NCBI GenBank assembly: GCA_902515765.1
Contig: CABXVZ010000010.1
Location: 1 to 38,282 of the forward strand
From: an uncultured Alphaproteobacteria bacterium
GTDB lineage: Bacteria; Pseudomonadota; Alphaproteobacteria; HIMB59
Direction: 5' to 3'
DNA: 38,282 bases
The translations under genes and the position numbers were made by a program. Shown here one piece after another: positions 18,299-36,716 of the stretch (position 1 is the stretch's first letter; the number at the start of each line of letters is the position of its first letter). Under the pieces are notes generated by a model. It ran no database searches, had not been told where the DNA came from, and worked only from the letters and a program-made list of their open reading frames with translations.

Positions 18299-19288
18299 TT
18301 ATATTTCATTTATTCGATTCAATAGTGCATCAGAGATTTCAATATCTTTATTTTTATTTTTTTGAAAACTTGATTGGCGTTTAGCTCCCGGAAGACGGGC
18401 ACCCTCTTGGTTTGTAATTGAGTCAATTAATAATTTGAGAGTATTTTCAAAATTAGAATTAAATTTTAGAGGATTAATTGCTATAAAAAATTGACCTGTG
18501 CTAGGTGGGCCTCCATCTTCTCCTGCAAAAGAGGAAGCTTGTGTTCCTAAATTTCCTCCAGCAATACAGGAAGTTAAAATTTCAACCATTAAACCGGTTC
18601 CAAAACCTTTATATCCACCACTAGGCGCCATTGTTCCTTTTAAGGCTTCTTTTGCATCAGTAGTAGTATTTCCTTGGGTATCAAACGCCCAACCTTCTGG
18701 AATAGATTCACCAGACTTCGCTCGAACTGATATTTCACTTTTAGCAACGACACTTGCAGATTGATCGATAATTATAGATGCGCTTCCCTTATAAGGCACT
18801 GCAATTGAAAAAGGATTTGTTCCAACTACCGCCTTTACTCCCCCAAGAGGTGCAATAGATGCTGGAGCGTTAGTGAAACCTAATCCCACAAATCCTTTTT
18901 CTGCAATTCTTTTAGTGTGAAATCCTAAAATGCCACAATTATATGAATTGTATACTGACATGGATGCAATCCCTTCTTTAGAGCACATTTCAAAAATCTC
19001 AGGAAAACCTTTATTTATAGCACTATGAGCAAAACCGTTATCTGCATCAACTTTAAGTGATGAATTGGAGATCTTTTTAAAAGATGAGGCCGCATCTCCT
19101 TTTATTTTTCCTATTTTCAAATGATTACAATAAATAGGCAAATAATGGAAACCGTGACTTTTTATCCCACAAAATTCTGCGTCCAGTATCCCCTCAATAA
19201 TTCCATAAGTATTCTCTTCGGAACAGCCTGATTTTATAAGCTTTTCTTTAGCTAGATCAAAAGCAGCTAATTTATCAAAGCTAGGCAT
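18299..19288 (-). CDS. Ldh_2-family NAD(P)-dependent oxidoreductase (malate/lactate dehydrogenase type)
   Basis: A 329-residue protein of the Ldh_2 family, unrelated in fold to classical lactate dehydrogenase. It shows KSHGFHYLPIY near 43-53 with the family His, NCGILGFHTKRIAEKGF near 111-127, the nucleotide-binding TNAPASIAPLGG near 134-145 followed by GTNPFSIAVP, and GGYKGFGTGLMVEIL near 219-233. Members reduce or oxidise 2-oxo acids, and some (DpkA type) reduce cyclic imines such as delta1-pyrroline-2-carboxylate. It is divergent from proX across 154 bases, which suggests shared control and a role with the island to the right. The actual substrate is unresolved. Confidence 0.85.
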   Translation of the reverse strand: MPSFDKLAAFDLAKEKLIKSGCSEENTYGIIEGILDAEFCGIKSHGFHYLPIYCNHLKIGKIKGDAASSFKKISNSSLKVDADNGFAHSAINKGFPEIFEMCSKEGIASMSVYNSYNCGILGFHTKRIAEKGFVGLGFTNAPASIAPLGGVKAVVGTNPFSIAVPYKGSASIIIDQSASVVAKSEISVRAKSGESIPEGWAFDTQGNTTTDAKEALKGTMAPSGGYKGFGTGLMVEILTSCIAGGNLGTQASSFAGEDGGPPSTGQFFIAINPLKFNSNFENTLKLLIDSITNQEGARLPGAKRQSSFQKNKNKDIEISDALLNRINEI

Positions 19289-19378
19289 GTCGGAATTAGA
19301 TAACTTTTTCTCAGTTAATCAAGGAAAATAAACACATTACTTAAAATTATACATATAAATAATTTGCATGACATTAAC

Positions 19379-19391
19379 GTAAATGATTTAC
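19379..19391. promoter_or_regulatory. Palindrome GTAAAT-G-ATTTAC, candidate operator
   Basis: GTAAAT and ATTTAC form a perfect 6-bp inverted repeat with one spacer base. It lies in the spacer between the divergent Ldh_2 gene and proX, 52 bases before the proX start. The position suits a regulator controlling both directions. No matching regulator gene lies adjacent. Short AT-rich palindromes are common by chance, so this is tentative. Confidence 0.35.
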
Positions 19392-19429
19392 TGATATTCT
19401 ATAGACTAATAAATATTTATTAATTATAT

Positions 19430-19434
19430 GGAGG
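19430..19434 (+). promoter_or_regulatory. Strong Shine-Dalgarno GGAGG deciding the proX start
   Basis: GGAGG at 19430-19434 stands eight bases before the ATG at 19443. It overlaps the earlier in-frame ATG at 19428, which is therefore not the true start. Strong ribosome sites are rare in this window, so this points to high expression of the binding protein. Confidence 0.75.
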
Positions 19435-19442
19435 ATAAATAT

Positions 19443-20450
19443 ATGACATATTTAAGAAACGTATTCTTCACAGCAATACTTGCTTTAGGTTTTAGTTCTT
19501 TAACAACTACTGCCTCAGCATGTTCTCTAACTGTTGCTAATATGAACTGGGCATCTGCAAACTTAATGGCAGAAGTTGATAAGTTTATTTTAGAAAATGG
19601 ATTTGGATGTGAAGTTGAACTAGTTGAAGGCGCAACTATGCCTACATTTACAAGTATGGCAGAAAAAGGTGAGCCAGACGTAGCTCCTGAATTTTGGGCC
19701 AATGCTGCTTTAGTGCCTTTACAAGCTGCTGAAGGAGAAGGAACAATAGTTACTCTTAACAAAGCCCCTATTACAGGCCTTGGTGAGGGATGGTGGATTC
19801 CACCTGCAACTCTTGAAGCTCATCCTGAGTTAACATCTGCTGAAGCTATTTTAGCAAGACCAGACTTATTCCCACATCCAGAAGATCCATCAAAAGGTGC
19901 CTTCGTAGGTTGTCCAGCTGGTTGGGGTTGTCAGTTAATCAATGCTCAACAATATATTGGTTGGGATATGGAAGCAAAAGGATGGCTTTTAGTTGACCCT
20001 GGTTCTGCTGCTGGTCTTGATGGTTCAATGGCTAAAGCTGTTGAGCGTGGAGAGAACTGGTTTGGTTATTATTGGTCACCAACTTCTTTGATAGGAAAAT
20101 ATGGAATGGTTCCTGTTGATATGGGAGATTGGGGTGGAGATGATAACTGGCACAACTGTGTAGTGAAGCCTGAGCAAGATTGTGGTGATCCAAAAGCTAC
20201 TTCTTGGATTAAATCAGAAGTCTACACAATTGCCTCAGCAAACTTTACAGAGCAAGCTGGTCAAGATGGTATATTTTATCTCAGAGAAAGAACATGGCCT
20301 GGACCTGTTATGAACTCAATGTTAGTTTACATGGCAGAAAATCAAGCTGAGGGTGCTGATGCAGCAGTTGAATTTCTTCAATCTCATGAAGACGTTTGGA
20401 AAAACTGGGTTGGCGCAGATATGAGAATAAAAATTAAGAACGCCCTTTAA
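19443..20450 (+). CDS. proX: Glycine betaine/proline-type ABC transporter substrate-binding protein
   Basis: A 335-residue periplasmic binding protein of the OpuAC/ProX family. It has a signal peptide (MTYLRNVFFTAILALGFSSLTTTASA, cleavage probably after TASA before CSLTVANMNW). The mature part is rich in Trp and acidic residues, with motifs EFWANAALVP, GEGWWIPP, NWFGYYWSPTSL and MGDWGGDDNWHNC. Tryptophans of this kind bind quaternary ammonium or sulfonium groups through cation-pi contacts. Ligands in the family include glycine betaine, proline betaine, choline and DMSP, and specificity cannot be read by eye. A strong ribosome site precedes it and a hairpin separates it from proW, consistent with more binding protein than permease. 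Confidence 0.9.
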   Translation: MTYLRNVFFTAILALGFSSLTTTASACSLTVANMNWASANLMAEVDKFILENGFGCEVELVEGATMPTFTSMAEKGEPDVAPEFWANAALVPLQAAEGEGTIVTLNKAPITGLGEGWWIPPATLEAHPELTSAEAILARPDLFPHPEDPSKGAFVGCPAGWGCQLINAQQYIGWDMEAKGWLLVDPGSAAGLDGSMAKAVERGENWFGYYWSPTSLIGKYGMVPVDMGDWGGDDNWHNCVVKPEQDCGDPKATSWIKSEVYTIASANFTEQAGQDGIFYLRERTWPGPVMNSMLVYMAENQAEGADAAVEFLQSHEDVWKNWVGADMRIKIKNAL

Positions 20451-20463
20451 TATTATTTAATCT

Positions 20464-20500
20464 TACCGAGCCCGTTCATACTTAATTATCGGGTTCGGTA
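20464..20500 (+). terminator. Intercistronic hairpin between proX and proW
   Basis: TACCGAGCCCG (20464-20474) pairs with CGGGTTCGGTA (20490-20500) in an 11-bp stem with one G-U pair and a 15-base loop, 14 bases after the proX stop. It is followed by CTTTAATTTA and lacks a clean T run. It is therefore likely a partial terminator or a 3' stabiliser of the proX message, so that proX is made in excess over proW and proV. Confidence 0.65.
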
Positions 20501-20530
20501 CTTTAATTTAGAAATATCAGTACATAAAAA

Positions 20531-21418
20531 ATGAGTTTTTTCAGTGAAATCCCAACTATGGGTAGAGAGTCTCTTCGAGACTTTAAAAAAGGTATAGACT
20601 TAAACTTTAAAGAATTTTCAAGAAACTATGGTGATGGCATAGAGGGATTTTTTGATCCCCTATTAATGTTTCTGGTTTGGCTAGAAAAATTATTAGTTAA
20701 TTCACCTTGGCCTTTAGTAATATTAGTTTTAGCGGGTTTAGCTTGGATCGGATCTAGAAATTGGAAGCTTGTTGCGGGAACAATAGTTTGTTTTATGCTG
20801 ATAGGTTATTTTGGTATGTGGAAAGATACGATGTCGACAATAGCAATTATTTCTGTTGCCACATTGGTGTGTATTAGTATTGGTATCCCTCTTGGTATTT
20901 TAATGTCAAGATCTCGAAAACTTGAGGCTGGGATTACTCCTATTTTAGATGTCATGCAAACTGTACCTAGCTTTGTTTATCTTATTCCTATTATTATGCT
21001 TTTAGGTATAGGAAAAGTTCCTGGATTAATAGCCGTTTGTATTTACGCAGTTCCCCCTATAGTTCGATTAACAAATTTAGGTATCAGAGAAGTTGACAAA
21101 GAATGTCTTGAGGCTGTTGATTCTTTTGGAGCAACTAGCTGGCAGAGATTAACCAGAGTTCAGATGCCATTAGCTTTGCCTACAATATTTGCAGGGGTAA
21201 ACCAAACAATTATGATGGCACTTGCAATGGTTGTAATAGCTTCAATGATTGGTGTTAGAGGTTTAGGAGTTCCGGTTTTAAGAGCTGTATCAAATCAGTA
21301 TTTAGCACTTGGTATGTTAAATGGCTTAGCAATCGTAGCACTAGCAATTATTTTTGATCGAGTCTCTCAGCAATATGGTAAAAGACTTCAGAAGCATAGA
21401 GAGGGAAGAAATTTATGA
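20531..21418 (+). CDS. proW: Glycine betaine/proline-type ABC transporter permease
   Basis: A 295-residue inner-membrane permease of the ProW/OpuAB family. An N-terminal amphipathic region of about 55 residues precedes helices near 60-95. The transport domain follows with IPLGILMSRSRKLE and MQTVPSFVYLIPIIMLLGIG. The cytoplasmic EAA loop is ECLEAVDSFGATSWQRLTRVQMPLALPTIFAGVNQ, which docks on the ATPase. It forms the membrane pore for the osmolyte captured by ProX. Its stop overlaps the proV start by four bases (ATGA), which couples their translation. Confidence 0.92.
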   Translation: MSFFSEIPTMGRESLRDFKKGIDLNFKEFSRNYGDGIEGFFDPLLMFLVWLEKLLVNSPWPLVILVLAGLAWIGSRNWKLVAGTIVCFMLIGYFGMWKDTMSTIAIISVATLVCISIGIPLGILMSRSRKLEAGITPILDVMQTVPSFVYLIPIIMLLGIGKVPGLIAVCIYAVPPIVRLTNLGIREVDKECLEAVDSFGATSWQRLTRVQMPLALPTIFAGVNQTIMMALAMVVIASMIGVRGLGVPVLRAVSNQYLALGMLNGLAIVALAIIFDRVSQQYGKRLQKHREGRNL

Positions 21419-22437
21419 GTGATACAAAAATAAAAATTGATTCTCTCTATAAAATTTTTGGAAATAAGCCTAAAGAGGCCCTTGAATATGTAAAGCAAGG
21501 AGTTGGAAAAGATGAGCTACTTGAAAAACACAATCATGTATTGGGCCTAAGTGATATCAACATTGATATAGAGGACAAATCTATTCAGGTTATTATGGGT
21601 TTATCTGGTTCTGGTAAATCGACTCTAATAAGACATATCAATAGACTCATCGAGCCAACAGCAGGAAATGTTTTAGTTGATGGAAGTGATGTTCTTCAAT
21701 ACGACGAGGCTACACTTAGAGATTTTAGAAGAACTAGAACTGCAATGGTATTTCAGAGATTTGCATTGATGCCCCATATGACCATTTTAAAAAATGTCAG
21801 TTTGGGTTTAGAGCTTCAGGGTAAAAAAGATGATGAAATTTTAAACAGTGCTATGAAGTGGATTGAAAAGGTAGGTCTGAACGGCTATGAAGATAGATAC
21901 CCTCAACACTTATCAGGAGGAATGCAACAAAGAGTTGGTCTCGCTAGAGCCTTGACAAATGATACTGATATCCTTCTGATGGATGAAGCATTTAGTGCTT
22001 TAGATCCTCTTATTAGAAAAGATATGCAGGACATTTTGTTAAATTTACAAGCAGAACTTCATAAGACTGTTGTATTTATTACACACGACCTTGATGAAGC
22101 CTTAAAAATTGGAGATAGAATTGCAATTCTTAAAGATGGAATTATGGATCAAGAGGGTTTACCCGTAGATATATTGCTAAGCCCCAAAACTGAGTATGTT
22201 TCAAACTTTGTTGAAGATGTTAATAGATCCAGAGTGCTCAAGGCAAAGCACATTATGGAAAAGGCAAATGGCTCTGATCTCTCTAAGGGAATGCCTGTTG
22301 ATGAAAATGATTTTATAGAATCTTTTATTGATAGAGTTGTTGCAGAAAAGCCTGAATTAATTGTAGTCCAAGATTCTGATAAAAAAAATATTGGTAGCTT
22401 AACTTCAAAAAGATTATCTGAAGTTTTAAAAAAATAG
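21415..22437 (+). CDS. proV: Glycine betaine/proline-type ABC transporter ATP-binding protein
   Basis: A 340-residue ABC ATPase of the ProV/OpuAA family. It has Walker A GLSGSGKST (near 63-71), a Q-loop in MVFQRFALMPHMT, signature LSGGMQQRVGLARAL, Walker B ILLMDEAFSALDP and the switch His in VFITHDLDEAL. It carries the family's N-terminal extension before the nucleotide domain. The C-terminus (about 270-340) is shorter than E. coli ProV (400), with room for at most one degenerate CBS-like half, so osmotic sensing by a full CBS pair is doubtful. It drives osmolyte uptake with ProX and ProW. The aldehyde dehydrogenase gene begins nine bases later. Confidence 0.92.
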   Translation: MSDTKIKIDSLYKIFGNKPKEALEYVKQGVGKDELLEKHNHVLGLSDINIDIEDKSIQVIMGLSGSGKSTLIRHINRLIEPTAGNVLVDGSDVLQYDEATLRDFRRTRTAMVFQRFALMPHMTILKNVSLGLELQGKKDDEILNSAMKWIEKVGLNGYEDRYPQHLSGGMQQRVGLARALTNDTDILLMDEAFSALDPLIRKDMQDILLNLQAELHKTVVFITHDLDEALKIGDRIAILKDGIMDQEGLPVDILLSPKTEYVSNFVEDVNRSRVLKAKHIMEKANGSDLSKGMPVDENDFIESFIDRVVAEKPELIVVQDSDKKNIGSLTSKRLSEVLKK

Positions 22438-22446
22438 TAGCTTTCT

Positions 22447-23898
22447 ATGTTTGGAAAGAAATCTAATTATATCAATAATGCCTGGGTTGAAGGAGAGGGG
22501 GAAATTAATAATATTAACCCTTCTGATACCAATGATCTTATTGATACCTACTCTAATGCTTCTTCAAGTCAATTAAATGATGCTGTTAGTTCAGCTAAAG
22601 TAGCTCAGAAAAAATGGGAAAAAGTTGGGATAGAAAAAAGAGCTAATATCTTAAATGATATTGGTAGTGAGATTATTAAGCAGTCGAAGGAAATAGGAAC
22701 TCTGCTATCTAGGGAAGAAGGGAAAACTCTTCCTGAAGGTATTGGAGAAGTAGTAAGATCTGGTCAACAGTTTCAATATTATGCGGCAAGTGCTTTAAGA
22801 CAATTTGGGGAAAATATCGCCTCTACGAGAGAAGGTGTTTCAGTTGAAATGACAAGAGAGCCTGTTGGTGTTTGTGGTATTATTTCTCCCTGGAATTTTC
22901 CAATTGCGATAGCCGCTTGGAAAGCGGCACCCGCTATGGCTTTTGGAAATGCAGTGGTTTTAAAACCTGCTTCTCAAACCCCAGCTAGTGCGATTGCCCT
23001 TACAAAAATTATAAGTGATCAAAAAGATATACCTGAGGGTTTATTCAATTTAGTTTTAGGTGGTGGGGGTACTATTGGTCATCAAATTTCAGGACATCCA
23101 GATATAGATGCTATTAGTTTTACTGGCTCAGTTAGTGTTGGGCAGACTATTTACATGGAGGCTGCAAAAACTATGAAAAAAATGCAGTTAGAGATGGGAT
23201 CTAAAAATCCGTTACTAGTTATGGATGATGCTGATTTAGATATTGCTGTTGCCTGTGCTACCAATGGGGCTTACGGAGGAACAGGTCAAAAATGTACCGC
23301 TTCATCAAGATTGATTGTCCATGAAAAAGTTTATAAAGATTTTATTCAAAGATTAATTAAAAGTATTAGCGCCCTGAAAGTTGGTCATGCTTTAAAAGAG
23401 AGATCGCAAATGGGTCCCGTTTCTAGTGAAACCCAATTACATTCAAATCTTGATTATGTTAAGAAGGGTAAAAGTGAGGCTGAACTTGCCTTTGGTGGAA
23501 ATCCTATTAGCTTGGATACGCCAGGCTATTATATGGAGCCTACTCTCTTTATTGATGGGGATAATAAATCAACAATCAATCAAGAAGAGATGTTTGGTCC
23601 AATCGCTTGCGTTATTCCAGTAAAATCATACGAAGAAGGACTTGAGGTAGCAAACGATACCATATTTGGCCTTTCGAGTGGAATAATTACCCAATCTCTC
23701 AGTAAGGCTGCTGATTTTAAGAAGAATATTAAAACGGGTGTGACCACTGTTAATCTTCCTACTGCTGGATTAGACTACCATGTACCCTTCGGAGGAAGAA
23801 AAGCCTCTTCTTTTGGTCCAAGGGAGCAAGGAACTTACGCACATGAATTCTTTACTCATGTAAAGACTACCTATGTAAGCCCTGGCAAGATTAATTGA
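22447..23898 (+). CDS. Aldehyde dehydrogenase, alpha-ketoglutaric-semialdehyde dehydrogenase-like
   Basis: A 483-residue NAD(P)-dependent aldehyde dehydrogenase. Catalytic residues are intact: N150 in ISPWNFP, K173 in VLKPASQTP, E249 in LEMGSKNP and C283 in GTGQKCTASSR. The C-terminal PFGGRKASSFGPREQGTYAHEF followed by FFTHVKTTYV is typical of the 2,5-dioxovalerate (alpha-ketoglutaric semialdehyde) dehydrogenase group. That activity ends pathways for hydroxyproline and some sugar acids by giving 2-oxoglutarate. A betaine- or butyraldehyde-type substrate is the alternative. It lies nine bases after proV, and its stop overlaps the next start by four bases, so it belongs to the uptake operon. 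Confidence 0.85.
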   Translation: MFGKKSNYINNAWVEGEGEINNINPSDTNDLIDTYSNASSSQLNDAVSSAKVAQKKWEKVGIEKRANILNDIGSEIIKQSKEIGTLLSREEGKTLPEGIGEVVRSGQQFQYYAASALRQFGENIASTREGVSVEMTREPVGVCGIISPWNFPIAIAAWKAAPAMAFGNAVVLKPASQTPASAIALTKIISDQKDIPEGLFNLVLGGGGTIGHQISGHPDIDAISFTGSVSVGQTIYMEAAKTMKKMQLEMGSKNPLLVMDDADLDIAVACATNGAYGGTGQKCTASSRLIVHEKVYKDFIQRLIKSISALKVGHALKERSQMGPVSSETQLHSNLDYVKKGKSEAELAFGGNPISLDTPGYYMEPTLFIDGDNKSTINQEEMFGPIACVIPVKSYEEGLEVANDTIFGLSSGIITQSLSKAADFKKNIKTGVTTVNLPTAGLDYHVPFGGRKASSFGPREQGTYAHEFFTHVKTTYVSPGKIN

Positions 23899-24863
23899 GC
23901 TATAAAATAGACAATTTACAATATTGTAATTGGTCTAAGGAAATCTTTGAAATTAACAATAAAGCAAACCTGGATGCTGTTCACGCTACCATCTGCTATC
24001 ACGAAGATTTTGATGAATTAAAAATCAATATTGAAAAATGGGAAGAATATTTTAGAGATTATTCCTCTTTGATATTTCAAGGATTTAATTCTCGAGATAT
24101 AGAAAAAGCTAAACAAGAAAATAAAACAGCAATATTTTTTGGGTTACAAAATTGCTCTCCTATTGAAGACAATATCGAATATGTTGAGAGATTAAAAAAT
24201 TTGGGAGTTCTTTTCATGCAACTCACATACAACAATCAATCTCTATTGGCCACTGGGTGTTATGAAAAACGAGATACTGGTATAACGAGAATGGGAAGAG
24301 AAGTTATCAAAGAAATGAATCGAGTTAAGATGATCATTGATATGTCTCACTCAGCAGAATTTTCTACTCTTGAAGCTATAGAAATTTCTGAAAAACCTAT
24401 TGTTATCAGTCATGCCAATCCTCTTTTTTGGCACAAAGGACTCCGAAACAAATCAGATGTCGTTTTAAAAGCACTAAACGATAGTGGAGGTATGATAGGT
24501 TTCTCTCTATATCCTCATCATCTTAAAAACTCTTCAGAATGCACACTTATTTCTTTTTGTGAAATGATAGCAGAGACTACTAAAAGAATTTCAATAAAAC
24601 AGATTGGTATTGGATCAGACTTGTGTATTCGCCACCCTGACAGTATTGTAGAGTGGATGCGCAATGGAACTTGGACAAAAACTAAGGATTTTGGTGAGGG
24701 CAATGCAAGTAATGCTGGCTTTCCGCCCCAACCAAATTGGTTTGAGGATGCAAGAGGTTTCATAAATTTAGAAAAAGGTCTTAAAGATGTAGGCTTTAGT
24801 GAAGAAGAGACACACGACATACTTGGGAATAATTGGTACAATTTTTACCAAAAATTTGATTAA
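23895..24863 (+). CDS. Peptidase M19 (membrane dipeptidase)-like protein with altered metal site
   Basis: A 322-residue cytosolic TIM-barrel protein of the M19 dipeptidase family, starting at TTG 23895 because no other in-frame start exists before residue 108. Retained features are IIDMSHSAE (H152), VISHANPL (H173) and IGIGSDL near the C-terminal end of the barrel. In classical M19 enzymes the first ligands are H-x-D and a bridging Glu. Here the matching places read VHAT (H30, T32) and FGLQNCSPIED (Q85), so two ligands are replaced. This suggests a different reaction, perhaps hydrolysis of a non-peptide bond. The TTG overlaps the dehydrogenase stop, and its own stop touches the next ATG. Confidence 0.8.
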   Translation: MSYKIDNLQYCNWSKEIFEINNKANLDAVHATICYHEDFDELKINIEKWEEYFRDYSSLIFQGFNSRDIEKAKQENKTAIFFGLQNCSPIEDNIEYVERLKNLGVLFMQLTYNNQSLLATGCYEKRDTGITRMGREVIKEMNRVKMIIDMSHSAEFSTLEAIEISEKPIVISHANPLFWHKGLRNKSDVVLKALNDSGGMIGFSLYPHHLKNSSECTLISFCEMIAETTKRISIKQIGIGSDLCIRHPDSIVEWMRNGTWTKTKDFGEGNASNAGFPPQPNWFEDARGFINLEKGLKDVGFSEEETHDILGNNWYNFYQKFD

Positions 24864-26518
24864 TGAAAGTAGACTTAAGAAAACCAGAATTTGTGATGAA
24901 ACTTGATCGTTTGGGATCTTTTCATCAATCTAAACTCTCTTTTTTGAGAAGTTTTATAAGAGAATTTAAAGATTGGGATTTTCAAACAAAGGAATTTAAC
25001 TTAGATAATGAGGGATATGGTTATGCAATCTACACTGTCCAAAATAGACATAAACAATATTCCCTAATTTGTTTTTCAAATTATCTAGACGACAGTGATC
25101 GATCAGATCGTGTGATTGCAACTAAATGGGATGCATCATTTGTATTATTTGATGGTGTTCCCTTAAAAAAGGATATTGAAAGACTTCAAAGTAATGTCCC
25201 ACTCCAAGAACAAGGACGAGTGAGCCAAAAAGAATTATGTTTATCTAGAGCTAACAAATCTGTTAGGATCTTCGAGCATGTTGTCAATAGTCTATCTGAA
25301 GGAAAGCAACCTGATACAAAACTACTTTATGATGTGGGCTATCTATACCGCACCACAGCTGTTTATGGGGCAGGTAAGTTTGGGTTAGCCGATCGAATAA
25401 AAATTCAAAATAGAGACGAAATAAAAGGACCTTTTAGATTAGAGATGATGTTGGTATACCTTGCTCGTCAATTTACTTTTGACATTGTAAATCACGTGGC
25501 CCACCATAGGTGCCCTGAAAAAGCAATAACATTGCATGATGACATAGCTAGGAATTTAGGAATTGGAAATTCAACAGGATTGGGAATGGCCCCCTTCATC
25601 GTTAATCATCCTGCCCTTCTCAACCAGTGGATTATAGCTAAAGAGTCAGCGCTCAAAGCTATTAGATCTATAGCTTTTATAAACGAAATTGAAAAAAATT
25701 CTTTTCAAAATTATCTAACACTCATCCAAGAAAATATTAAATATTGGAAAACAGATAGCGAATATCAAATCAAAAAGAATAATCAACTTCTCAAAGATCT
25801 AGAAAATTTTCAAAAATATTTTAATAATCTATCTTTAGGTGAGTATTTTTGGAATAGTGTTTATCAATGGGTAGAAAAAAATACGCAAGCAGAGTGTTGT
25901 GAATTTATTGTTTCTTTAATGATGGAAGTTTATCCAGAAATTGTTGAGCCTTTAAGCTACGAGATGTCTATAAATGAAGAGGAATATTTTGATATTGACA
26001 CCAGTCGACCAATTTATGAGATCTCTCAATTGATTGAAAATCAATATACGTGGCTGCTTAATATAAATTTTGACCAAAAAGATAATATTTTTAATTTTTG
26101 GTATTATTCTAAGAATAAACAAGAACCCAGATTGTCTGATCGATTTAGTGAAGAAGGTGCTGATCTTGAACTTCCTTTAGCAATAGCAAGAGACATACAA
26201 AATCTTTATCAAGAGTTAAAATTAATGGATCTTAAAGATGATTTGGGTGCTTATTTAATAAAAAGTCAACAATATCGTCATATTTTAAGACGTGTTTTAA
26301 TATGTGAAAAGCTTCCCTACTCAGAGATACAAGATAATACTATTTCAAAATCTGTTATTCCAGTCGATATGCTTCGATTAAAATTATCTTTTTTTGGAGC
26401 AACTAGGTTTGACCCACGATCTGATCGTTGGGTAAGAATAACCATGTACCAAGGCGCTCCCTTAATGAGAGAAATTAACCAATCTAACGATAGTTGGTCT
26501 TATAAAAAAATAGCCTAA
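24863..26518 (+). CDS. Uncharacterised 551-residue protein in osmolyte island
   Basis: I do not recognise a named family. The protein is soluble, without a signal peptide or clear membrane helix. The most ordered-looking part lies at about 165-265: LLYDVGYLYRTTAVYGAGKFG, MMLVYLARQFTFDIVNHVAHHRCPEKA, then DIARNLGIGNSTGLGMAPFIVNHPALLNQW. The His cluster and Gly-rich turn look like an active site or cofactor pocket. The C-terminus has ATRFDPRSDRWVRITMYQGAP, which also looks conserved. One-base overlaps (TAATG) with the genes on both sides tie it tightly to the M19-like and DUF3726-like genes, suggesting a joint complex or successive steps. Confidence 0.75.
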   Translation: MKVDLRKPEFVMKLDRLGSFHQSKLSFLRSFIREFKDWDFQTKEFNLDNEGYGYAIYTVQNRHKQYSLICFSNYLDDSDRSDRVIATKWDASFVLFDGVPLKKDIERLQSNVPLQEQGRVSQKELCLSRANKSVRIFEHVVNSLSEGKQPDTKLLYDVGYLYRTTAVYGAGKFGLADRIKIQNRDEIKGPFRLEMMLVYLARQFTFDIVNHVAHHRCPEKAITLHDDIARNLGIGNSTGLGMAPFIVNHPALLNQWIIAKESALKAIRSIAFINEIEKNSFQNYLTLIQENIKYWKTDSEYQIKKNNQLLKDLENFQKYFNNLSLGEYFWNSVYQWVEKNTQAECCEFIVSLMMEVYPEIVEPLSYEMSINEEEYFDIDTSRPIYEISQLIENQYTWLLNINFDQKDNIFNFWYYSKNKQEPRLSDRFSEEGADLELPLAIARDIQNLYQELKLMDLKDDLGAYLIKSQQYRHILRRVLICEKLPYSEIQDNTISKSVIPVDMLRLKLSFFGATRFDPRSDRWVRITMYQGAPLMREINQSNDSWSYKKIA

Positions 26519-27114
26519 TGCAATCTCTATATGAAATTGAGACTACCGTTTTAAGATCATCGCGAACACAAGGTTTGAGTTGGGGTGTTTCTGAAGAAGT
26601 AGGTAAGGCAATTAGGGTTTTAGAGCAGTCGAATTTGGCAGGGCTAGAGAGTTTTAAAAGAATTATTGATTTAGGTTTTGATAATTTAAATAAGCTCCTT
26701 GAAGTTAATCAAAAAAATACTAACAATCTATGCCCAATCCATTTTGGATTATTTTTTCTTGATCAATCTCACAAAAATAAACTTTATCAAACCCTTCATT
26801 TTGAGAGTTTAGTAGAACCGTTAGTTTCTTTACCATTCCTAATAAAAGCTGCCAAAAAAAATCTCATTTATTTTCAACTGGATTCTAAAGAATTGGTTTT
26901 AAATATTTCACCAGGGAGTCTTTTTTCCATAGATAAAAATCAAATACCTCAAATAATATCAAAGTTCTCTTTAACATTGACGACCCAAAGGGAAATCCAG
27001 TTTTCTCCAAAGACATGGGACGACCTTTATAAACTCTCTTTAGAAACCTTTGTTGATGAGTCTGAAGAGAAAAGAATTTCCGGTGCTGGCGCTGGATTGA
27101 CAGATAACGACTAA
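26518..27114 (+). CDS. Probable DUF3726 protein
   Basis: A 198-residue soluble protein of unknown function. The N-terminus SLYEIETTVLRSSRTQGLSWGVSEEVGKAIRVLE and the C-terminal end RISGAGAGLTDND match the pattern I associate with DUF3726, a family seen in Alphaproteobacteria. Its ATG overlaps the stop of the 551-residue gene by one base. The region between, with SPGSLFSI near 140, shows no known catalytic motif. Constant pairing with the larger protein would suggest a two-subunit enzyme or a maturation partner. That idea is inference. Confidence 0.65.
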   Translation: MQSLYEIETTVLRSSRTQGLSWGVSEEVGKAIRVLEQSNLAGLESFKRIIDLGFDNLNKLLEVNQKNTNNLCPIHFGLFFLDQSHKNKLYQTLHFESLVEPLVSLPFLIKAAKKNLIYFQLDSKELVLNISPGSLFSIDKNQIPQIISKFSLTLTTQREIQFSPKTWDDLYKLSLETFVDESEEKRISGAGAGLTDND

Positions 27115-27140
27115 TTTAACATTTCCAAGTATTTTGTACT

Positions 27141-27168
27141 TTGCTTTATTATCAGAATGCATTATACA
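27141..27168 (+). promoter_or_regulatory. Candidate internal promoter for dmdA
   Basis: TTGCTT (27141-27146) and TATACA (27163-27168) are separated by 16 bases, a reasonable sigma-70 arrangement. Transcription would start near 27175, just before the ATG at 27182. This lies in the 67-base gap after the DUF3726-like gene, the first real gap in the operon, so dmdA could be expressed separately. Confidence 0.4.
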
Positions 27169-27181
27169 TATGCGAAATTTA

Positions 27182-28288
27182 ATGAATTCATTTATTGCAA
27201 AAAGTGCCAGACTAAGATCTACACCCTTTACTGAGCGTATTGAAGCTTACGGTGTGGAGTCTTACACAGTCTACAATCATATGCTGCTTCCAGCTTCGTT
27301 CAAAGGAGTTGAAGAAGACTACCGTCACCTCAAAGAAAATGTTCAGTTATGGGATGTGTCGGTGGAAAGACAGGTCCAAATCAAAGGTCCTGATGCAGAT
27401 AAACTCACTCAGCTAATCACATGCAGAGACCTATCTAAAGCTAAAGATTATATATGTTATTATGCACCGATTGTAGATGATAAAGGCAAAATTTTAAATG
27501 ATCCTATAATTATGAAAGTTGCACCAGATACTTGGTGGATTTCAATTTCTGATACTGATGTTGTTTTATATGCAAAAGGGATTGCTATAGGAAAGAATTT
27601 AGATGTAGAGGTTATAGAGCCAAATGTTAACCCTCTAGCTGTTCAAGGACCTAAGTCCTTTGAATTAATGAGAAGAGTTTTTGGAGAAGAAATTTTAAAA
27701 ATGAAGTTTTTTCATTTTAAAAGATATCCCTTTGCTGGACATGATTTTTTAATAGCAAGATCAGGTTGGTCAAAACAGGGTGGATTTGAAATCTATGTTG
27801 ATGATGATGTAAAAGGACTTGAGCTCTATGATGCTTTAACCTTAGAGGGGAAAGATTTAGATGTTAGACCCGGATGCCCAAATTTAATTGAAAGAATAGA
27901 AGGTGGTTTATTATCCTATGGAAACGATATGGATATTAACGATACACCTTTAGAATGTGGTTTGGATGCCTTTGTCTCTTTTAATCCTGATATTGAATAC
28001 CTAGGTAAATCTATTTTGGAAAAACAACATGCTGAAGGAGTAAATCGCTCCTTAGTCGGTCTTAAACTCCAAATGGATAAAATATCAATAACTAAGTTTA
28101 TCCCTATTTTTCAAGGATCTAAAATGATTGGAGAACTTAGGTCAGCCTGTTTTAGCCCAAAATTTCAATGTTGTCTGGGTATCGCCATGGTCGATAAATC
28201 AGAACAAGATACTTCTCAACCTTTGCAAATTTCAATTGAGGGCAATCAAATCACTGCTGAAATAACTTCGCTCCCTTTCACAAAATAG
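27182..28288 (+). CDS. dmdA: Dimethylsulfoniopropionate demethylase
   Basis: A 368-residue GcvT-family enzyme that transfers a methyl group from DMSP to tetrahydrofolate, giving methylmercaptopropionate. Key runs match the SAR11 DmdA I remember (369 residues): RSTPFTERIE at the N-terminus, YTVYNHMLLPASFK, WDVSVERQVQIKG, TCRDLSKAK, RSGWSKQGGFEIYV and PGCPNLIERIEGGLLSYG. The start is chosen at ATG 27182 because of length and the promoter position. ATG 27170 is possible, and a TTG at 27134 lies upstream of the candidate -10 box. It follows the DUF3726-like gene and precedes an MFS transporter. Activity on another methylated osmolyte cannot be excluded. Confidence 0.88.
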   Translation: MNSFIAKSARLRSTPFTERIEAYGVESYTVYNHMLLPASFKGVEEDYRHLKENVQLWDVSVERQVQIKGPDADKLTQLITCRDLSKAKDYICYYAPIVDDKGKILNDPIIMKVAPDTWWISISDTDVVLYAKGIAIGKNLDVEVIEPNVNPLAVQGPKSFELMRRVFGEEILKMKFFHFKRYPFAGHDFLIARSGWSKQGGFEIYVDDDVKGLELYDALTLEGKDLDVRPGCPNLIERIEGGLLSYGNDMDINDTPLECGLDAFVSFNPDIEYLGKSILEKQHAEGVNRSLVGLKLQMDKISITKFIPIFQGSKMIGELRSACFSPKFQCCLGIAMVDKSEQDTSQPLQISIEGNQITAEITSLPFTK

Positions 28289-28326
28289 ATATTGCTTTCC
28301 TAATTTAAAGGTTTAAAAAAAGCGCG

Positions 28327-29592
28327 ATGTTTGGAACGATAGTAAGCTCTTGGGCACTTTTTACTGGCTTTGGTCTAATTATGCTAGCTCATGCGCTACA
28401 AGGAACTCTTCTAAATGTTAATGCTGTATTTTTTAATTTTTCAGACTTTGAAATCGGTTATGTTTTTTCTGGATATTTCATAGGATATTTATTCAGTTCA
28501 ATTCAATGTCCAAAACTAATCAAAAACGTTGGTCATATTAGAGTCTTTGCAGCGTTTGCATCTTTAGGATCTATAGCGATTTTGCTTCATTGGATTGTAA
28601 TTAATCCAATCGCCTGGTTAATTTTTCGTATGATAACAGGTTTTTCCTTTGCAGCTATTTATATTGTTTGTGAAAGTTGGTTAAATGATCGAGCTGATAA
28701 TAAATCTCGTGGACAGCTCATTGGCTTCTATATGATTGTATTGTATTTTTCTACTAGCGCTGGAGGTATGCTCGTGAATCTCCGAGCAACAACAGATGCT
28801 CATTTATTCATACTCACCTCTTTACTAATCTCTTTAGCTCTTGTTCCTATACTTCTCACAAAAAAACCTGCTCCAGATTTTTCAACTCCAAAATTTTTAT
28901 CCTTAAAGGAATTATATTCAAAATCTCCCATGGCTTTTGTGGGCTCTTTTTCCATCGGAATGGTTTATAGTGCTCTCTTTGGTTTGATGGGTGTGTTTGG
29001 CGCCAAAATTGGATTGAGCATCTTCCAAATTTCAATTTTAGTTTTTGTAAATATGTTTGTGGGTGCTATTTTTCAATATCCTGTTGGAAAAATTTCAGAT
29101 AAATATGATAGAAGAACAATTCTTTTGTCGTTAAACCTTATCGCGATAGCTTCTTTAATTTTTATATATTTATTAGGTTCTTTATCTTTTTATCTTCTAT
29201 TAGTGTTTATTGGAATTCACTCTGCTGTCTCTCTTCCCTACTACGCTGTTGTTATTTCCCATATGAATGATTTCTTAGAAAAGGATGAAATAGTTTCTGG
29301 CAGTTCTACTCTCACTCTAGTTAATGCCCTAGGGATGGTCATGGGTCCTATGCTTGCTTCAGGTTTTATGGCATATTTTGGTGCCTATGGTTATTTTTTG
29401 TATATGATAGTTATTTATTGTTTAGTAGCCCCCTATAATTTCTTTAGAATACGAGTTGGAAGGACAAGTAATATTTATGAAGAAAATACTCCTTCCATGA
29501 TCGTGCCTAGAACAGCATCTCCAGTGGGAATGCAGTTGGCAAGTGATCAAATCATAACTAAAATAGAAGACGATGAAGAAAGTAGTTCATGA
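28327..29592 (+). CDS. Major facilitator superfamily transporter (YcaD-like)
   Basis: A 421-residue, twelve-helix secondary transporter. The first half has FEIGYVFSGYFIGYLFSS and the WLNDRADNKSRGQLIGFYM loop between helices 4 and 5. The second half has PVGKISDKYDRRTILL, a good MFS A-motif. A C-terminal acidic tail (SDQIITKIEDDEESSS) is cytoplasmic. It resembles the YcaD-like MFS group, whose substrates are unclear. Its place after dmdA and its overlap of four bases with the RidA gene suggest uptake of a substrate, or export of a product, of the same pathway. Confidence 0.82.
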   Translation: MFGTIVSSWALFTGFGLIMLAHALQGTLLNVNAVFFNFSDFEIGYVFSGYFIGYLFSSIQCPKLIKNVGHIRVFAAFASLGSIAILLHWIVINPIAWLIFRMITGFSFAAIYIVCESWLNDRADNKSRGQLIGFYMIVLYFSTSAGGMLVNLRATTDAHLFILTSLLISLALVPILLTKKPAPDFSTPKFLSLKELYSKSPMAFVGSFSIGMVYSALFGLMGVFGAKIGLSIFQISILVFVNMFVGAIFQYPVGKISDKYDRRTILLSLNLIAIASLIFIYLLGSLSFYLLLVFIGIHSAVSLPYYAVVISHMNDFLEKDEIVSGSSTLTLVNALGMVMGPMLASGFMAYFGAYGYFLYMIVIYCLVAPYNFFRIRVGRTSNIYEENTPSMIVPRTASPVGMQLASDQIITKIEDDEESSS

Positions 29593-30050
29593 ATTTTGAA
29601 AATCAATTAGAGCAACTAGGCTTAATTCTTCCCAGTCCTGCCAAACCCGCTGGTAGCTATAAACCCTGTTTAATTGTTGATAATATTGCCTATATTTCGG
29701 GGCAAGGACCTTTATTAGAAGATGGGAGTTTTGCTAAAGGGGTAATAGGAAAAGACATAGATATCGAAACTGGCCAAAAACATGCTCAAAAATGTGGGCT
29801 TGCTATTTTATCAGCACTCAAGAATGAAATAGGCGATCTCAATAAAGTAGATCAACTTGTAAAAATCACGGGTTTTGTTAATTGTACGAGTGATTTTACT
29901 CAACAGCCTCTAGTAATCAATGGTTGCTCAGATCTTATGAAGGAAGTTTTTGGAGATAAGGGCGTCCACGCCCGTGCCGCTGTAGGTGTCAATTCGCTTC
30001 CCCTTGGTTTCACAGTTGAAATTGAGGCTATCTTTAAAATTCGATTATAA
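29589..30050 (+). CDS. RidA/YjgF-family protein
   Basis: A 153-residue member of the RidA family, whose archetype hydrolyses reactive 2-iminoacids and enamines to 2-oxo acids plus ammonia. It has the opening GLILPSPAKPAGSYKPC, the strand YISGQGPLLEDG, and HARAAVGVNSLPLGFTVEIEAIFKI at the C-terminus, where the Arg of HARAAVG corresponds to the conserved ligand-binding arginine. It is of the slightly longer type. It overlaps the MFS stop by four bases. A RidA next to imine-forming dehydrogenases would fit a pathway passing through an imino acid. Confidence 0.85.
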   Translation: MNFENQLEQLGLILPSPAKPAGSYKPCLIVDNIAYISGQGPLLEDGSFAKGVIGKDIDIETGQKHAQKCGLAILSALKNEIGDLNKVDQLVKITGFVNCTSDFTQQPLVINGCSDLMKEVFGDKGVHARAAVGVNSLPLGFTVEIEAIFKIRL

Positions 30051-30119
30051 TTTCTCAATTGACAAATAAATAAAAAAAGCAAAAAGTTATTTAAATAATT
30101 ATTTTTTGGGGGTAGTGCC

Positions 30120-31226
30120 ATGGAGGTACAATTTCAAAATAACTCACTCTTAGTGAGTCATCAAAATAAGACTTTTCAGTTACATCCAATTTGGTTAAGA
30201 GAACGTCTCCCAGGTGAAGATTTTTTTGATATCGATACTAATCAACGACTTTATGAGCCTTCTTCAATAAATTTAGATTTGCAAATTTCTCATGCCGAAT
30301 TATTAGATGCCCTTCTCAAAGTTGAATTTAATGATGGTATCAAAGGAACATTTAATATTGATGAACTTCTAAGAGAAATGGACAGTGACAAAAATAAACG
30401 AGGCCCTCTTCCTGAAAGAATTTTATGGAACTCAGAATTACAAAATTTTCCTGAGGCTCAATTTGAGGAGGAGATGGTAGAAAAAGAGTCAATGTATCAC
30501 TTACTTATGAATTTTTATAAATATGGATTTGTGATTATTAAAAATGTTCCAACTGAAGATAAATATCTTTTAAAATTTGTAAGTTCGATTGGACCAGTGA
30601 AAGTTACTAATTTTGGAGAGTACTTTGATGTAAAGTCAAAACCCAATCCAAATGACCTTGCCTATAAACCTATTGCTCTTCCCCCTCACACAGATAACCC
30701 TTATCGCAAACCTGCAGCTCCTGGTATCCAATTTTTACATTGCCTTAAAAATGAAGTGTCAGGAGGATTTTCCACTTTAGTAGATGGATTTGCTGTTGCA
30801 GAATATTTGAGAAATAAACACACAGAAGCATTTGAGTCTCTTACAACCACAAATCTTCGATATCAGTTTCAAGATAAAGATATAGTTTTGGAGAACTGGG
30901 GAGAGTTAATTGAGTTGGATAAAGAGGGAGACTATAAACAAGTCCGATATAGCACAAGAGTAGACTATGTACCGCCATTAGAACCTGAAAAATTAAAAAA
31001 TTTTTATCAGGCTAGAAAACTCCTTAGTGAATTATACTGCTCAGCAGAATTTGAATTAAAATTTAAACTGCAACCAGGGGATATTATGATGTTTGATAAT
31101 CATCGTTTATTACATGGTCGAACTGCCTATGATGCCAATGAAGGAATGCGACACCTACAAGGTTGTTACTTAGAGTTTGATGCTACCGACGGAAAGTTAC
31201 GTCACTTAGCTCGAAAGTTTCAGTAG
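30120..31226 (+). CDS. Gamma-butyrobetaine-hydroxylase-like 2-oxoglutarate dioxygenase (TauD superfamily)
   Basis: A 368-residue Fe(II)/2-oxoglutarate oxygenase. The facial triad is H190 and D192 in LPPHTDNPYR plus H332 in NHRLLHGRTAYD, with the 2-oxoglutarate arginine probably R344 in GMRHLQGCYLEFD. The N-terminal domain begins LHPIWLRERLP like gamma-butyrobetaine and trimethyllysine hydroxylases, but lacks the usual zinc-binding Cys cluster after it. Relatives hydroxylate trimethylammonium compounds or cleave sulfonates. GGGGG just upstream at 30108-30112 may serve as the ribosome site. An 11-base gap leads to the enolase-superfamily gene. The substrate is unknown and is likely a methylated ammonium or sulfonium acid. 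Confidence 0.85.
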   Translation: MEVQFQNNSLLVSHQNKTFQLHPIWLRERLPGEDFFDIDTNQRLYEPSSINLDLQISHAELLDALLKVEFNDGIKGTFNIDELLREMDSDKNKRGPLPERILWNSELQNFPEAQFEEEMVEKESMYHLLMNFYKYGFVIIKNVPTEDKYLLKFVSSIGPVKVTNFGEYFDVKSKPNPNDLAYKPIALPPHTDNPYRKPAAPGIQFLHCLKNEVSGGFSTLVDGFAVAEYLRNKHTEAFESLTTTNLRYQFQDKDIVLENWGELIELDKEGDYKQVRYSTRVDYVPPLEPEKLKNFYQARKLLSELYCSAEFELKFKLQPGDIMMFDNHRLLHGRTAYDANEGMRHLQGCYLEFDATDGKLRHLARKFQ

Positions 31227-31237
31227 TTTTTTTTAAG

Positions 31238-32386
31238 ATGGCTGATCTTACTATTGTATCAGCAGAAGTATTTGCATGTAAATCTGATGCACCTCAAATT
31301 ATCTGGGCAAAAGATATGTCCCCGATGTTTGAGGCAAACATTATAGTCAAACTTCAAACTCAGTCTGGCATAGAGGCTGTCGGGGGTGTCTTGATACCTA
31401 CCGAACATCACTATGATTTTTCTGTAGTTCAAGCCTGCAGAAATTTATTCCCAGAAATAATAGGCAAAAGTCTTGAGGATAGAATTTCTGTGACTGAGTT
31501 TATGCTAACAAGATGTGTTCCTCTTAATCCTCTGGCTGTTTCATCAATTGATATCGCAATGTGGGATGGATATGCTAAGCATCATCAAAAACCTCTTTGT
31601 GAAGTTCTTGGAAAGAAAAGAGATAAAATTAAATCTTATGCTTCAACTCCACTTTTTCATTCCATTGATGAATACATCGATTTTGTCAAAGATCTTCAAT
31701 CTCAAAATTTTCATACCATCAAATTTCATACATGGTGTGAATTAGAATTTGACTTGGAGATGATTAGTCAAGTATGCCCTCAATTTCCTGATATCCAATT
31801 CATGATCGATTGTGAACAGCGATACCTTCGAGATGATGCTCTCCGCTTAGGTCGAAAGCTAGATGAACTTAAATTTGTTTGGATGGAAGCACCCTTTGAT
31901 GATTATGATTGGGACAGTTACCAATGGCTTCGTGAAAAAATTGCAACCCCTGTTCTTGGTGCAGGAAACTCTCTCCTCAATCCTTTCCAAATTGACCAAT
32001 CCTTAAAAGAGAATATTTTTCATCATGCCCGTGTCGACACCACCTACGTGGGAGGAATTACACAAGCCATCAAAATTATGAAAATAGCCAAAAAATATAA
32101 TAAAAACACGGAATTACAGTCATGGTCTTATCCATTGGGTCAAGCGGCTAATCTTCATATTATGCTAAGTCATGAAAATTGTAATTATTTTGAACAAGTC
32201 GTTCCTTACAAAAACCATGAACATGCAGCAAAAAGCTTTATTCGAACGGACAATCTTGGATATGTAGGGCCTAATCCTGAACACGGTCTTGGAATAGAAG
32301 TTGATTGGGACATCGTCAGCCGGGATTGGTACTCTCATATTCGACTCGATGAAAAAGGGCTTAAATCCCAAATTCGCTCAATCTAG
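31238..32386 (+). CDS. Enolase-superfamily (mandelate racemase/muconate lactonising-like) protein with divergent active site
   Basis: A 382-residue protein with the capping domain plus barrel layout of the superfamily: VSSIDIAMWDGYAKHHQKPLCEVLG near 101-125 is characteristic. Active-site positions are unusual. The second-strand motif is K162-F-H164 in place of Lys-x-Lys. Metal ligands read D191 (MIDCEQ), E217 (WMEAP) and N244 in GAGNS, where Asp or Glu is normal. The seventh-strand region is RVDTTYVGGITQ (D267), and the last barrel strand has W296 in LQSWSYP, where His or Lys is often found. It probably isomerises or dehydrates a carboxylate, but it may have shifted chemistry. It is linked to the oxygenase by an 11-base gap. 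Confidence 0.83.
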   Translation: MADLTIVSAEVFACKSDAPQIIWAKDMSPMFEANIIVKLQTQSGIEAVGGVLIPTEHHYDFSVVQACRNLFPEIIGKSLEDRISVTEFMLTRCVPLNPLAVSSIDIAMWDGYAKHHQKPLCEVLGKKRDKIKSYASTPLFHSIDEYIDFVKDLQSQNFHTIKFHTWCELEFDLEMISQVCPQFPDIQFMIDCEQRYLRDDALRLGRKLDELKFVWMEAPFDDYDWDSYQWLREKIATPVLGAGNSLLNPFQIDQSLKENIFHHARVDTTYVGGITQAIKIMKIAKKYNKNTELQSWSYPLGQAANLHIMLSHENCNYFEQVVPYKNHEHAAKSFIRTDNLGYVGPNPEHGLGIEVDWDIVSRDWYSHIRLDEKGLKSQIRSI

Positions 32387-32412
32387 TTTTTTTAATCCTA
32401 GTATAAAAGACC

Positions 32413-32934
32413 ATGAGATCTCTTTTGACTTTCATTAGTGTCTTATTTATATCGAGTAATGTAATGGCAGATAATCTTCATAAATTTACTATTAATGATA
32501 TTGATGGCAATCTTATCAATTTAAATCAATTTAAGGGAAAACCCGTTCTTCTAATCAATACGGCTAGTCGATGTGGATTTACCAAGCAATATGCTAATCT
32601 CTCTAATCTTCATAGAGAATATTTTAAAAAAAATTTAGTTATTATTGGAACACCTTCTAATAGTTTTCGTCAAGAGTTAGATGAAGAAAAAGATGTCAAA
32701 GAATTTTGCCTTGTTAATTATGATACAAAATTCATTATTTCAGAAATTATCGATGTGAAAGGAAGTGCGGCACATCCTTTATATAAATGGATATCTGAAA
32801 CTTATGGAAAAACACCTAAGTGGAATTTTTTCAAATATTTGTTCGATGGTGAGGGAAATTTAGTAGAGAGTTGGTCTTCTATTACTAAGCCCGACAGCTC
32901 TCAAATTACTGACCAAATAGATAAAATTATTTAA
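32413..32934 (+). CDS. Exported glutathione-peroxidase-family protein
   Basis: A 173-residue thioredoxin-fold peroxidase with a signal peptide (MRSLLTFISVLFISSNVMA). The peroxidatic Cys is C54 in NTASRCGFTKQYANL and the Trp/Asn part is PKWNFFKYLFDGEG. In typical members the next motif is FPCNQFG, with the resolving Cys and the active-site Gln. Here it is TPSNSF, so both are missing. It could still reduce peroxides with another thiol donor, for example via the Cys in EFCLVN. It is the last gene of the plus-strand array, 26 bases after the enolase-like gene, and is followed by a strong terminator. Confidence 0.85.
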   Translation: MRSLLTFISVLFISSNVMADNLHKFTINDIDGNLINLNQFKGKPVLLINTASRCGFTKQYANLSNLHREYFKKNLVIIGTPSNSFRQELDEEKDVKEFCLVNYDTKFIISEIIDVKGSAAHPLYKWISETYGKTPKWNFFKYLFDGEGNLVESWSSITKPDSSQITDQIDKII

Positions 32935-32952: not shown

Positions 32953-32977
32953 AAAAGGGCGCTAAGCGCGCCCTTTT
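32953..32977. terminator. Bidirectional intrinsic terminator
   Basis: AAAAGGGCGC (32953-32962) pairs with GCGCCCTTTT (32968-32977) around a five-base loop. On the plus strand it ends the array after the peroxidase gene. On the minus strand the run of A at 32949-32956 becomes a U tract that ends amtB. This is the strongest hairpin in the window. Confidence 0.9.
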
Positions 32978-34312: not shown

Positions 34313-34321
34313 AATGTCCCC

Positions 34322-34663
34322 TTATTTAATTGCCTCAGCGCCACGTTCGCCAGTACGAATTCGTACGACCTCTGACACTTCTGTTACGTAAATCTTGCCG
34401 TCACCAATTTTACCTGTTTTAACGGCATCAGAAATTGTTGTTATGACTTTTTCTACGTCTGCGGAGTCCACTAATACTTCCGCTCTTGATTTAGGAAGAA
34501 AGTGTACCTCATATTCTGCGCCTCGGTACAATTCAGTGTGGCCTTTCTGGCGCCCATATCCTTTAGCCTCAACGATTGTTAATCCCTGAATATCTACACC
34601 GGTTAGTGCCTGTCTCAGAGCCTCAACTTTGTCGGGCTTGATAATTGCTGTTACTAGTTTCAT
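34322..34663 (-). CDS. glnK: Nitrogen regulatory protein P-II
   Basis: A 113-residue P-II signal protein (112 is usual). It starts MKLVTAIIKPDKVEALRQAL. The T-loop includes GRQKGHTELYRGAEYEVHFLPK with the uridylylatable Y51, and the C-terminal signature is GKIGDGKIYVTEVSEVVRIRTGERG. It senses ATP/ADP and 2-oxoglutarate and here should gate AmtB, encoded nine bases downstream. A GAGG ribosome site precedes the start. Its upstream spacer (34664-34808, 145 bases) holds the promoter. No sigma-54 site (TGGCAC-N5-TTGC) was found there. GlnB and GlnK cannot be separated by sequence, and the name follows the amtB linkage. Confidence 0.96.
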   Translation of the reverse strand: MKLVTAIIKPDKVEALRQALTGVDIQGLTIVEAKGYGRQKGHTELYRGAEYEVHFLPKSRAEVLVDSADVEKVITTISDAVKTGKIGDGKIYVTEVSEVVRIRTGERGAEAIK

Positions 34664-34808
34664 TTTTACCTCACTAATTTTTTAGTAATGAATGGGTTAT
34701 AAATTCTGAATCAGAAAAAAAATAATGCTAAGAAGTAAAAGATACTATGCACTCAACGAATAGCTCAAGAATAACCAATAAAATTAGGCTTTTTTAAAGA
34801 TTTTTATA

Positions 34809-36708: not shown

Positions 36709-36716
36709 AGAGAGTT

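Follow-up and report, generated by a model that had tools for sequence, protein, structure and literature searches.

A mosaic osmolyte island in a HIMB59-type alphaproteobacterium carries a candidate homarine catabolic operon

Gene content of the island

The 38,282-nucleotide (nt) contig CABXVZ010000010.1 of an uncultured alphaproteobacterium of the HIMB59 lineage (hereafter, the window; contig C10 of a 0.96 Mb assembly that is 64% complete) carries an island of 14 genes for the import and breakdown of methylated osmolytes. A preliminary description of the sequence had reported 13 tightly spaced genes on one strand, a divergent Ldh_2-family gene and a single terminator, and all of these were found at the coordinates it gave: 13 genes lie on the plus strand and only ldh2 on the minus strand, and a terminator-like hairpin of ten pairs, six of them G–C, is located between the convergent gpx and amt genes (32953-32977). 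Overlaps of 1–4 nt occur at proW/proV, ALDH/M19, M19/U551, U551/DUF3726 and MFS/RidA, and the remaining gaps are 9–80 nt. The G+C content is 31–37% over the island, compared with approximately 23–33% in the first 15 kb of the window. No RNA families or tRNAs were found in the window as a whole.

The island begins with ldh2 (18299-19288, minus strand; PF02615, 300.7 bits), encoding a Ldh_2-family NAD(P)-dependent reductase of the imine/enamine or 2-oxo acid type. It is followed on the plus strand by an ABC importer comprising the betaine-type substrate-binding protein ProX (19428-20450; PF04069, 150.9 bits), the permease ProW (20531-21418; choline/betaine ABC permease models) and the ATPase ProV (21415-22437; TIGR01186 proV subfamily, 343.6 bits with a cut-off of 326.6). 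Next are a KGSADH-like aldehyde dehydrogenase (ALDH, 22447-23898), an M19-like amidohydrolase with an altered metal site (23895-24863), a 551-residue protein that we denote U551 (24863-26518) and a DUF3726 protein (26518-27114; PF12525, 46.8 bits with a cut-off of 22.1). The remaining genes, from dmdA to gpx, are described below.

The nearest relatives of the window are single-cell genomes and metagenome-assembled genomes of uncultured Alphaproteobacteria, including alpha proteobacterium HIMB59. Hereafter, genomes and loci compared in the analysis are designated 'G' and 'L', respectively. As far as their contigs reach, 15 HIMB59-group relatives (L002-L016) also carry the island, with U551 identities of 77–81%, so the gene order is not due to chance.

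The island is a mosaic of modules

Comparison within the genus and across distant loci reveals a mosaic: two or more unrelated nutrient-use modules stand side by side in the island and are independent of one another. U551 is present in 31 of 60 relatives and in 57 of the 387 sampled genomes of the class. In four U551-negative members of the genus (G004, G005, G017 and G018; 85–94% complete), the island locus lies between the flanks bacA-gnat-cysE and gpx-amt-glnK and contains proV-proX-proW, a YeiH-type gene, dmdA, mfs, rid, the oxygenase gene, an HD-domain gene and gpx, without ldh2, aldh, m19, u551 or duf3726. Whole-genome searches of these four and of four U551-positive members (G000, G022, G029 and G030) found m19, aldh, ldh2 and u551 in all of the latter and in none of the former; the divergent ldh2 thus genuinely belongs to the unit.

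The same five genes recur outside the genus. Near U551 at 39 distant loci, counted with hand-set identity thresholds and on contigs of which some are short, we found DUF3726 at 37 (directly downstream), M19-like genes at 27, ALDH at 15, LysR at 13, Ldh_2 at 7 and BCCT at 6. In these 39 loci dmdA occurs once, and the GBBH-type oxygenase, HD, enolase, MFS, island-type Rid and GPx genes do not occur at all. A further 20 U551 loci from genomes of the class include M19-like genes at 19, DUF3726 at 18 and Ldh_2 at 6. Annotated plasmids of Ruegeria TM1040, Aliiroseovarius, Phaeobacter porticola and Alisedimentitalea share the order LysR, ALDH-M19-(BCCT)-U551-DUF3726-Ldh_2, with a variable place for BCCT, and the Aminobacter U551 operon has the same core with proXWV. 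On the basis of this joint gain and loss in the genus and the recurrence at distant loci, ldh2-aldh-m19-u551-duf3726 is one travelling unit that goes with a betaine importer (hereafter, module 1); dmdA-mfs-rid-oxygenase-(HD or enolase)-gpx lies outside it.

The preliminary description had joined all the genes into a single route: DmdA-type folate chemistry would demethylate an imported betaine or sulfonium acid, the 2-oxoglutarate oxygenase would hydroxylate it, and 2-oxoglutarate would be the end product. Thirteen genes on one strand ahead of one terminator, kept together in a subset of the genus, would suit such a route. However, the two halves segregate independently through natural deletions in the genus, the oxygenase, enolase, MFS, island-type RidA and GPx genes are missing from the surroundings of U551 at all 39 distant loci, and DmdA passes the equivalog cut-off for a dimethylsulfoniopropionate (DMSP) demethylase, so that we regard a single integrated route as very improbable. 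The recurrent linkage on which that proposal depended exists within module 1, but not between the two halves. What does stand is the broader view that the island serves the catabolism of methylated osmolytes and includes an importer of the betaine type.

Several more distant occurrences of U551 were observed. Two complete genomes of 1.2–1.3 Mb from another family of the class (G232 and G307; L110 and L111) carry the M19-like, U551 (57–60% identity) and DUF3726 genes by themselves as a run of three, without ALDH. Genes beside U551 in these two genomes and in a sister family had been suspected from their length to be of the PurU type; those in G232 and G307 proved to be amino-acid/drug transporters, and the sister-family gene had no match. 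A plasmid of Pseudomonas sp. MPC6 (L061:880-10125) has U551-like and DUF3726 genes and, approximately 3–5 kb away, a BCCT transporter gene and two genes of the enolase superfamily, one of which is 36% identical to the window enolase gene. Sinorhizobium/Ensifer genomes (L052:11223-23169; L056) encode a distant U551 paralogue (24%) among genes for IclR, a hypothetical protein, an M19-like protein, an ABC importer, a class III aminotransferase, SSADH and two RidA proteins.

Betaine-type importers lie near module 1 in different forms: ProXWV in the window and Aminobacter, whereas many Roseobacters have BCCT. From its sequence, ProXWV is predicted to be the importer common to the locus, serving module 1 with a betaine ligand. 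The window ProXWV is 92–95% identical to that of L012; its ProX is 93% identical to the L012 protein but approximately 40% to those of most other relatives. U551, by comparison, stays at 77–81% throughout, which suggests an exchange of the importer.

Proteins of module 1

The window Ldh_2 protein shares 45–46% identity with the Ldh_2 proteins beside U551 in Ruegeria TM1040 and Aminobacter, and its ALDH shares 51–56% with those in the U551 operons of Roseobacters and Aminobacter. The ALDH had been labelled as KGSADH-type; it matches the KGSADH equivalogs, but falls under both cut-offs (NF052305, 492.6 versus 750; NF042993, 490.6 versus 770). The proposed funnelling to 2-oxoglutarate rested on that label, and the linkage described below points instead to N-methylglutamate. 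For the M19-like protein, the family label agrees with a PF01244 match and with the nearest solved structure, 2i5g, annotated 'amidohydrolase' (E = 5.5e-52). Three of the classical M19 metal ligands (HxD and Glu) are nevertheless replaced in the whole clade; two later His are kept, and the binuclear zinc site of the M19 dipeptidase (HxD, Glu and two His) is incomplete. The ligand positions are those of renal dipeptidase.

The U551 family has no match in NCBIfam, Pfam (34 members scanned) or PDB sequences. Its AlphaFold model, with a predicted local distance difference test (pLDDT) score of 85, has no convincing match in the PDB either (lowest Foldseek E-value, 1.0; highest VIA Z-score, 6.2, covering only 86 residues, all helical), which is no proof of a new fold. 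By contrast with U551, the DUF3726 model (pLDDT 87.6; Foldseek best E 9.5e-3) matches 15 Ldh_2 entries at Z 8.2–10.4 over approximately 155 residues, spanning approximately 270 target residues, with the next unrelated row at 4.2. The model suggests that DUF3726 has an Ldh_2 fold without the inserted nucleotide-binding (NAD) domain. The profiles themselves hardly align (hhalign, 21 columns, probability 2), and the DUF3726 family, judged by eye from the N-terminal register, lacks a conserved His at the position of SHG in Ldh_2. Its C-terminal tail, GAGAGLxDND, is conserved. A literature search for DUF3726 found no papers. It is possible, if somewhat doubtful, that U551 and DUF3726 together form an unrecognised pyridinium ring-opening enzyme, in which a large subunit with a PDB-unmatched fold pairs with an Ldh_2-derived partner lacking the NAD-binding domain, the GAGAGLxDND tail lying in the active site.

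Linkage to N-methylglutamate dehydrogenase-type genes

The genes soxBDAG adjoin the U551 core in Ruegeria TM1040, Aliiroseovarius, P. porticola and the sister family. In the sister family, a second SoxA-type gene is found in 17 of 18 U551-positive genomes, with cut copies only in the 18th, and in none of the five U551-negative ones. SoxA trees contain a 100/100 split that groups the U551-linked SoxA with the SoxA of the genus mgsABC-sox-tmm-tdm cluster, apart from the remaining SoxA paralogues. In G030, this cluster encodes Tmm (816; cut-off 675), Tdm (1163; cut-off 1100) and amidotransferase- and glutamate-synthase-like neighbours, and because of this context we name the sox set N-methylglutamate dehydrogenase (Mgd). 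The window genome has the same set on contig C4, with neighbours that match in length and order.

Side observations at these loci include a DoeA-like gene (ectoine hydrolase family, under the cut-off) between DUF3726 and the sox genes in the sister family (L097:10070-11245; L087; L095). In G047, the DoeA-like gene is accompanied by a DmdA whose score exceeds the equivalog cut-off.

The cluster could also be understood as a route for methylamine. Hydrolysis would open the ring to give an intermediate of the 2-(methylamino)muconate type, methylamine would be released, and the Mgd linkage would reflect its use through N-methylglutamate. Known 2-aminomuconate deaminases are Rid-family proteins, and short RidA genes lie near the U551 core in Phaeobacter, Sulfitobacter, Vibrio and Caballeronia; the genus moreover has the mgsABC-like, tmm and tdm cluster. 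We nevertheless consider methylamine release highly unlikely, as the U551 core of Roseobacters and of the sister family has only soxBDAG next to it, with no synthase genes (gmaS or mgsABC), and the window Rid protein belongs to another subfamily, linked to module 2.

Homarine as the probable substrate

Mgd takes part in homarine catabolism according to PMC13390433, which for the homarine pathway, described as conserved among bacteria, cites Ferrer-Gonzalez et al. (2026, Nat Microbiol 11:1531), and the marine Roseobacter R. pomeroyi rapidly consumes homarine (PMC12817926). Homarine (N-methylpicolinate betaine) is our candidate substrate because module 1 is linked to Mgd-type genes and Mgd is reported in its catabolism. 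Our analysis suggests that module 1 (ldh2, aldh, m19-like, u551 and duf3726, served by ProXWV) is probably a homarine catabolic operon. As described in the citing paper, to which our comparison is limited, the published pathway resembles module 1 in being found in environmental bacteria and uses Mgd.

The order of steps can be modelled on enzyme families and on trigonelline degradation by Acinetobacter baylyi trgABCDE, in which this N-methylpyridinium carboxylate is opened to an N-formyl semialdehyde that is then processed by an ALDH and a hydrolase. Ring opening there involves a flavin two-component monooxygenase, whereas module 1 has none. In the proposed pathway, ProXWV would import the betaine, and U551, together with the degenerate Ldh_2 fold of DUF3726, would attack the pyridinium ring and open it between C5 and C6. 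The ALDH would oxidise the resulting semialdehyde, Ldh_2 would reduce the remaining enamine or imine, and the M19-like enzyme would cleave the N-formyl (amide) bond. Finally, Mgd, whose genes lie on contig C4, would oxidise the N-methylglutamate produced, yielding glutamate and a C1 unit.

Several points weigh against the homarine assignment. It is made via the Mgd linkage, and the published operon, which is reported to consist of five genes and a regulator, is compared here through the citing paper. In the window genome, the Mgd-type cluster is unlinked to module 1 (contig C4 versus C10), and most distant U551 loci have no Sox genes nearby. Most sister-family genomes in which U551 and SoxA co-occur belong to a single genus and are thus not independent. 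Branches in the SoxA tree are long, with support of only 89–95 where the two U551-linked clades join. Finally, the ring-opening role of U551 and DUF3726 is assigned by elimination.

Sox linkage and betaine importers would equally suit any N-methyl betaine, and the substrate of module 1 might instead be a different ring betaine with an N-methyl group, or an N-methyl amino acid; proline betaine, trigonelline, N-methylpipecolate and similar compounds come into question. Such a route would deliver an N-methyl amino acid to a Sox-type dehydrogenase. In favour of this alternative, the Ldh_2 family has members that reduce piperideine-2-carboxylate and others that act as N-methyl amino acid reductases, and the Sinorhizobium U551 paralogue sits beside a different gene set. 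The known hydroxyproline and proline betaine pathways (HpbD and its associated enzymes) have three components in common with the island: an importer for betaines, a member of the enolase superfamily and an ALDH resembling KGSADH. They differ in that the 14 island proteins include no Rieske demethylase, as the preliminary description had correctly noted, and no FAD (hydroxyproline) dehydrogenase or DapA-type deaminase; the island ALDH misses the KGSADH cut-off and the island enolase is nearest to 4jhm. We also considered trigonelline as the substrate of the Sinorhizobium paralogue and rejected it, as Sinorhizobium meliloti without pSymA does not grow on trigonelline (PMC4207669) and the paralogue is on pSymB. 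With Mgd tied specifically to homarine in the citing description (PMC13390433), we judge a different betaine to be unlikely, and homarine remains the preferred substrate of module 1.

DmdA and the oxygenase module

DmdA (27134-28288) scores 512.6 bits against NF009133 (cut-off 410) and matches the DmdA structure 3tfh over its full length (E = 1.9e-134). The open reading frame is listed from TTG, and an ATG at 27170 or 27182 is the likelier start. As the equivalog cut-off is passed, this GcvT-type protein is, by sequence, assigned as an ordinary, separate DMSP demethylase, although dmdBCD are absent from the island. In Phaeobacter, a DmdA family member with dmdBCD stands beside the module 1 unit, and in a divergent relative a DddP-like gene adjoins DmdA. 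These neighbours, like the score, point to DMSP and away from the folate-dependent betaine demethylation suggested earlier.

The MFS transporter (28327-29592; PF07690), the Rid-family protein (29589-30050; PF14588 type), the Fe(II)/2-oxoglutarate oxygenase (30120-31226) and the enolase-superfamily protein (31238-32386; PF13378/PF02746; 4jhm, E = 3.5e-76) form a separate module (module 2). The oxygenase is TmpA/GBBH-like: it scores 342.7 bits against the TmpA model NF049936, under the cut-off of 400, matches 6npb (E = 1.8e-49) and keeps the HTD and distal His iron ligands. It occurs in many genus members without U551. A PhnZ/TmpB-like HD-domain oxygenase gene lies directly 3′ of it in many members, recalling the TmpA/TmpB pair of the 2-trimethylaminoethylphosphonate pathway. 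By contrast, an enolase-superfamily gene occupies the exact HD-oxygenase place in the window and some others; L015 has HD, whereas its near relative L016 has enolase, and L002:17628-18299 and loci L098, L099, L100, L106 and L107 also belong to this replacement series.

Sister-family neighbours were considered as a guide to the oxygenase substrate, and were uninformative, consisting of sugar and inositol genes. On a P. aeruginosa plasmid (L063:8932-14889), a TmpA-like/HD oxygenase pair occurs alongside genes for choline binding, choline dehydrogenase and aldehyde dehydrogenase, and its HD protein is 49% identical to the HIMB59 HD protein.

The island ends with a glutathione peroxidase-like protein (GPx, 32413-32934; PF00255, 100 bits), which is probably exported, given a hydrophobic N terminus read from the sequence. 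After the island, the minus strand (33005-35948) encodes a marine-type ammonium transporter, a P-II protein and a second DmdA-like GcvT protein (375.9 bits, under the DmdA cut-off of 410). At 36019-37265, a SOUL haem-binding protein gene adjoins one for a 229-residue Ion_trans channel protein.

Implications

Marine phytoplankton contain homarine as one of their abundant nitrogenous osmolytes, and bacteria of the HIMB59 type are plankton with small genomes. Sister genomes that carry the natural deletion offer a clean way to divide the island into modules, and the U551/DUF3726 pair, which by elimination would carry the ring-opening step, is a concrete target. If the homarine assignment is true, module 1 would represent a substantial nitrogen flux in hard-to-culture organisms, both of the HIMB59 type and with streamlined single-contig genomes such as G232 and G307, among the U551-positive genomes of the class.

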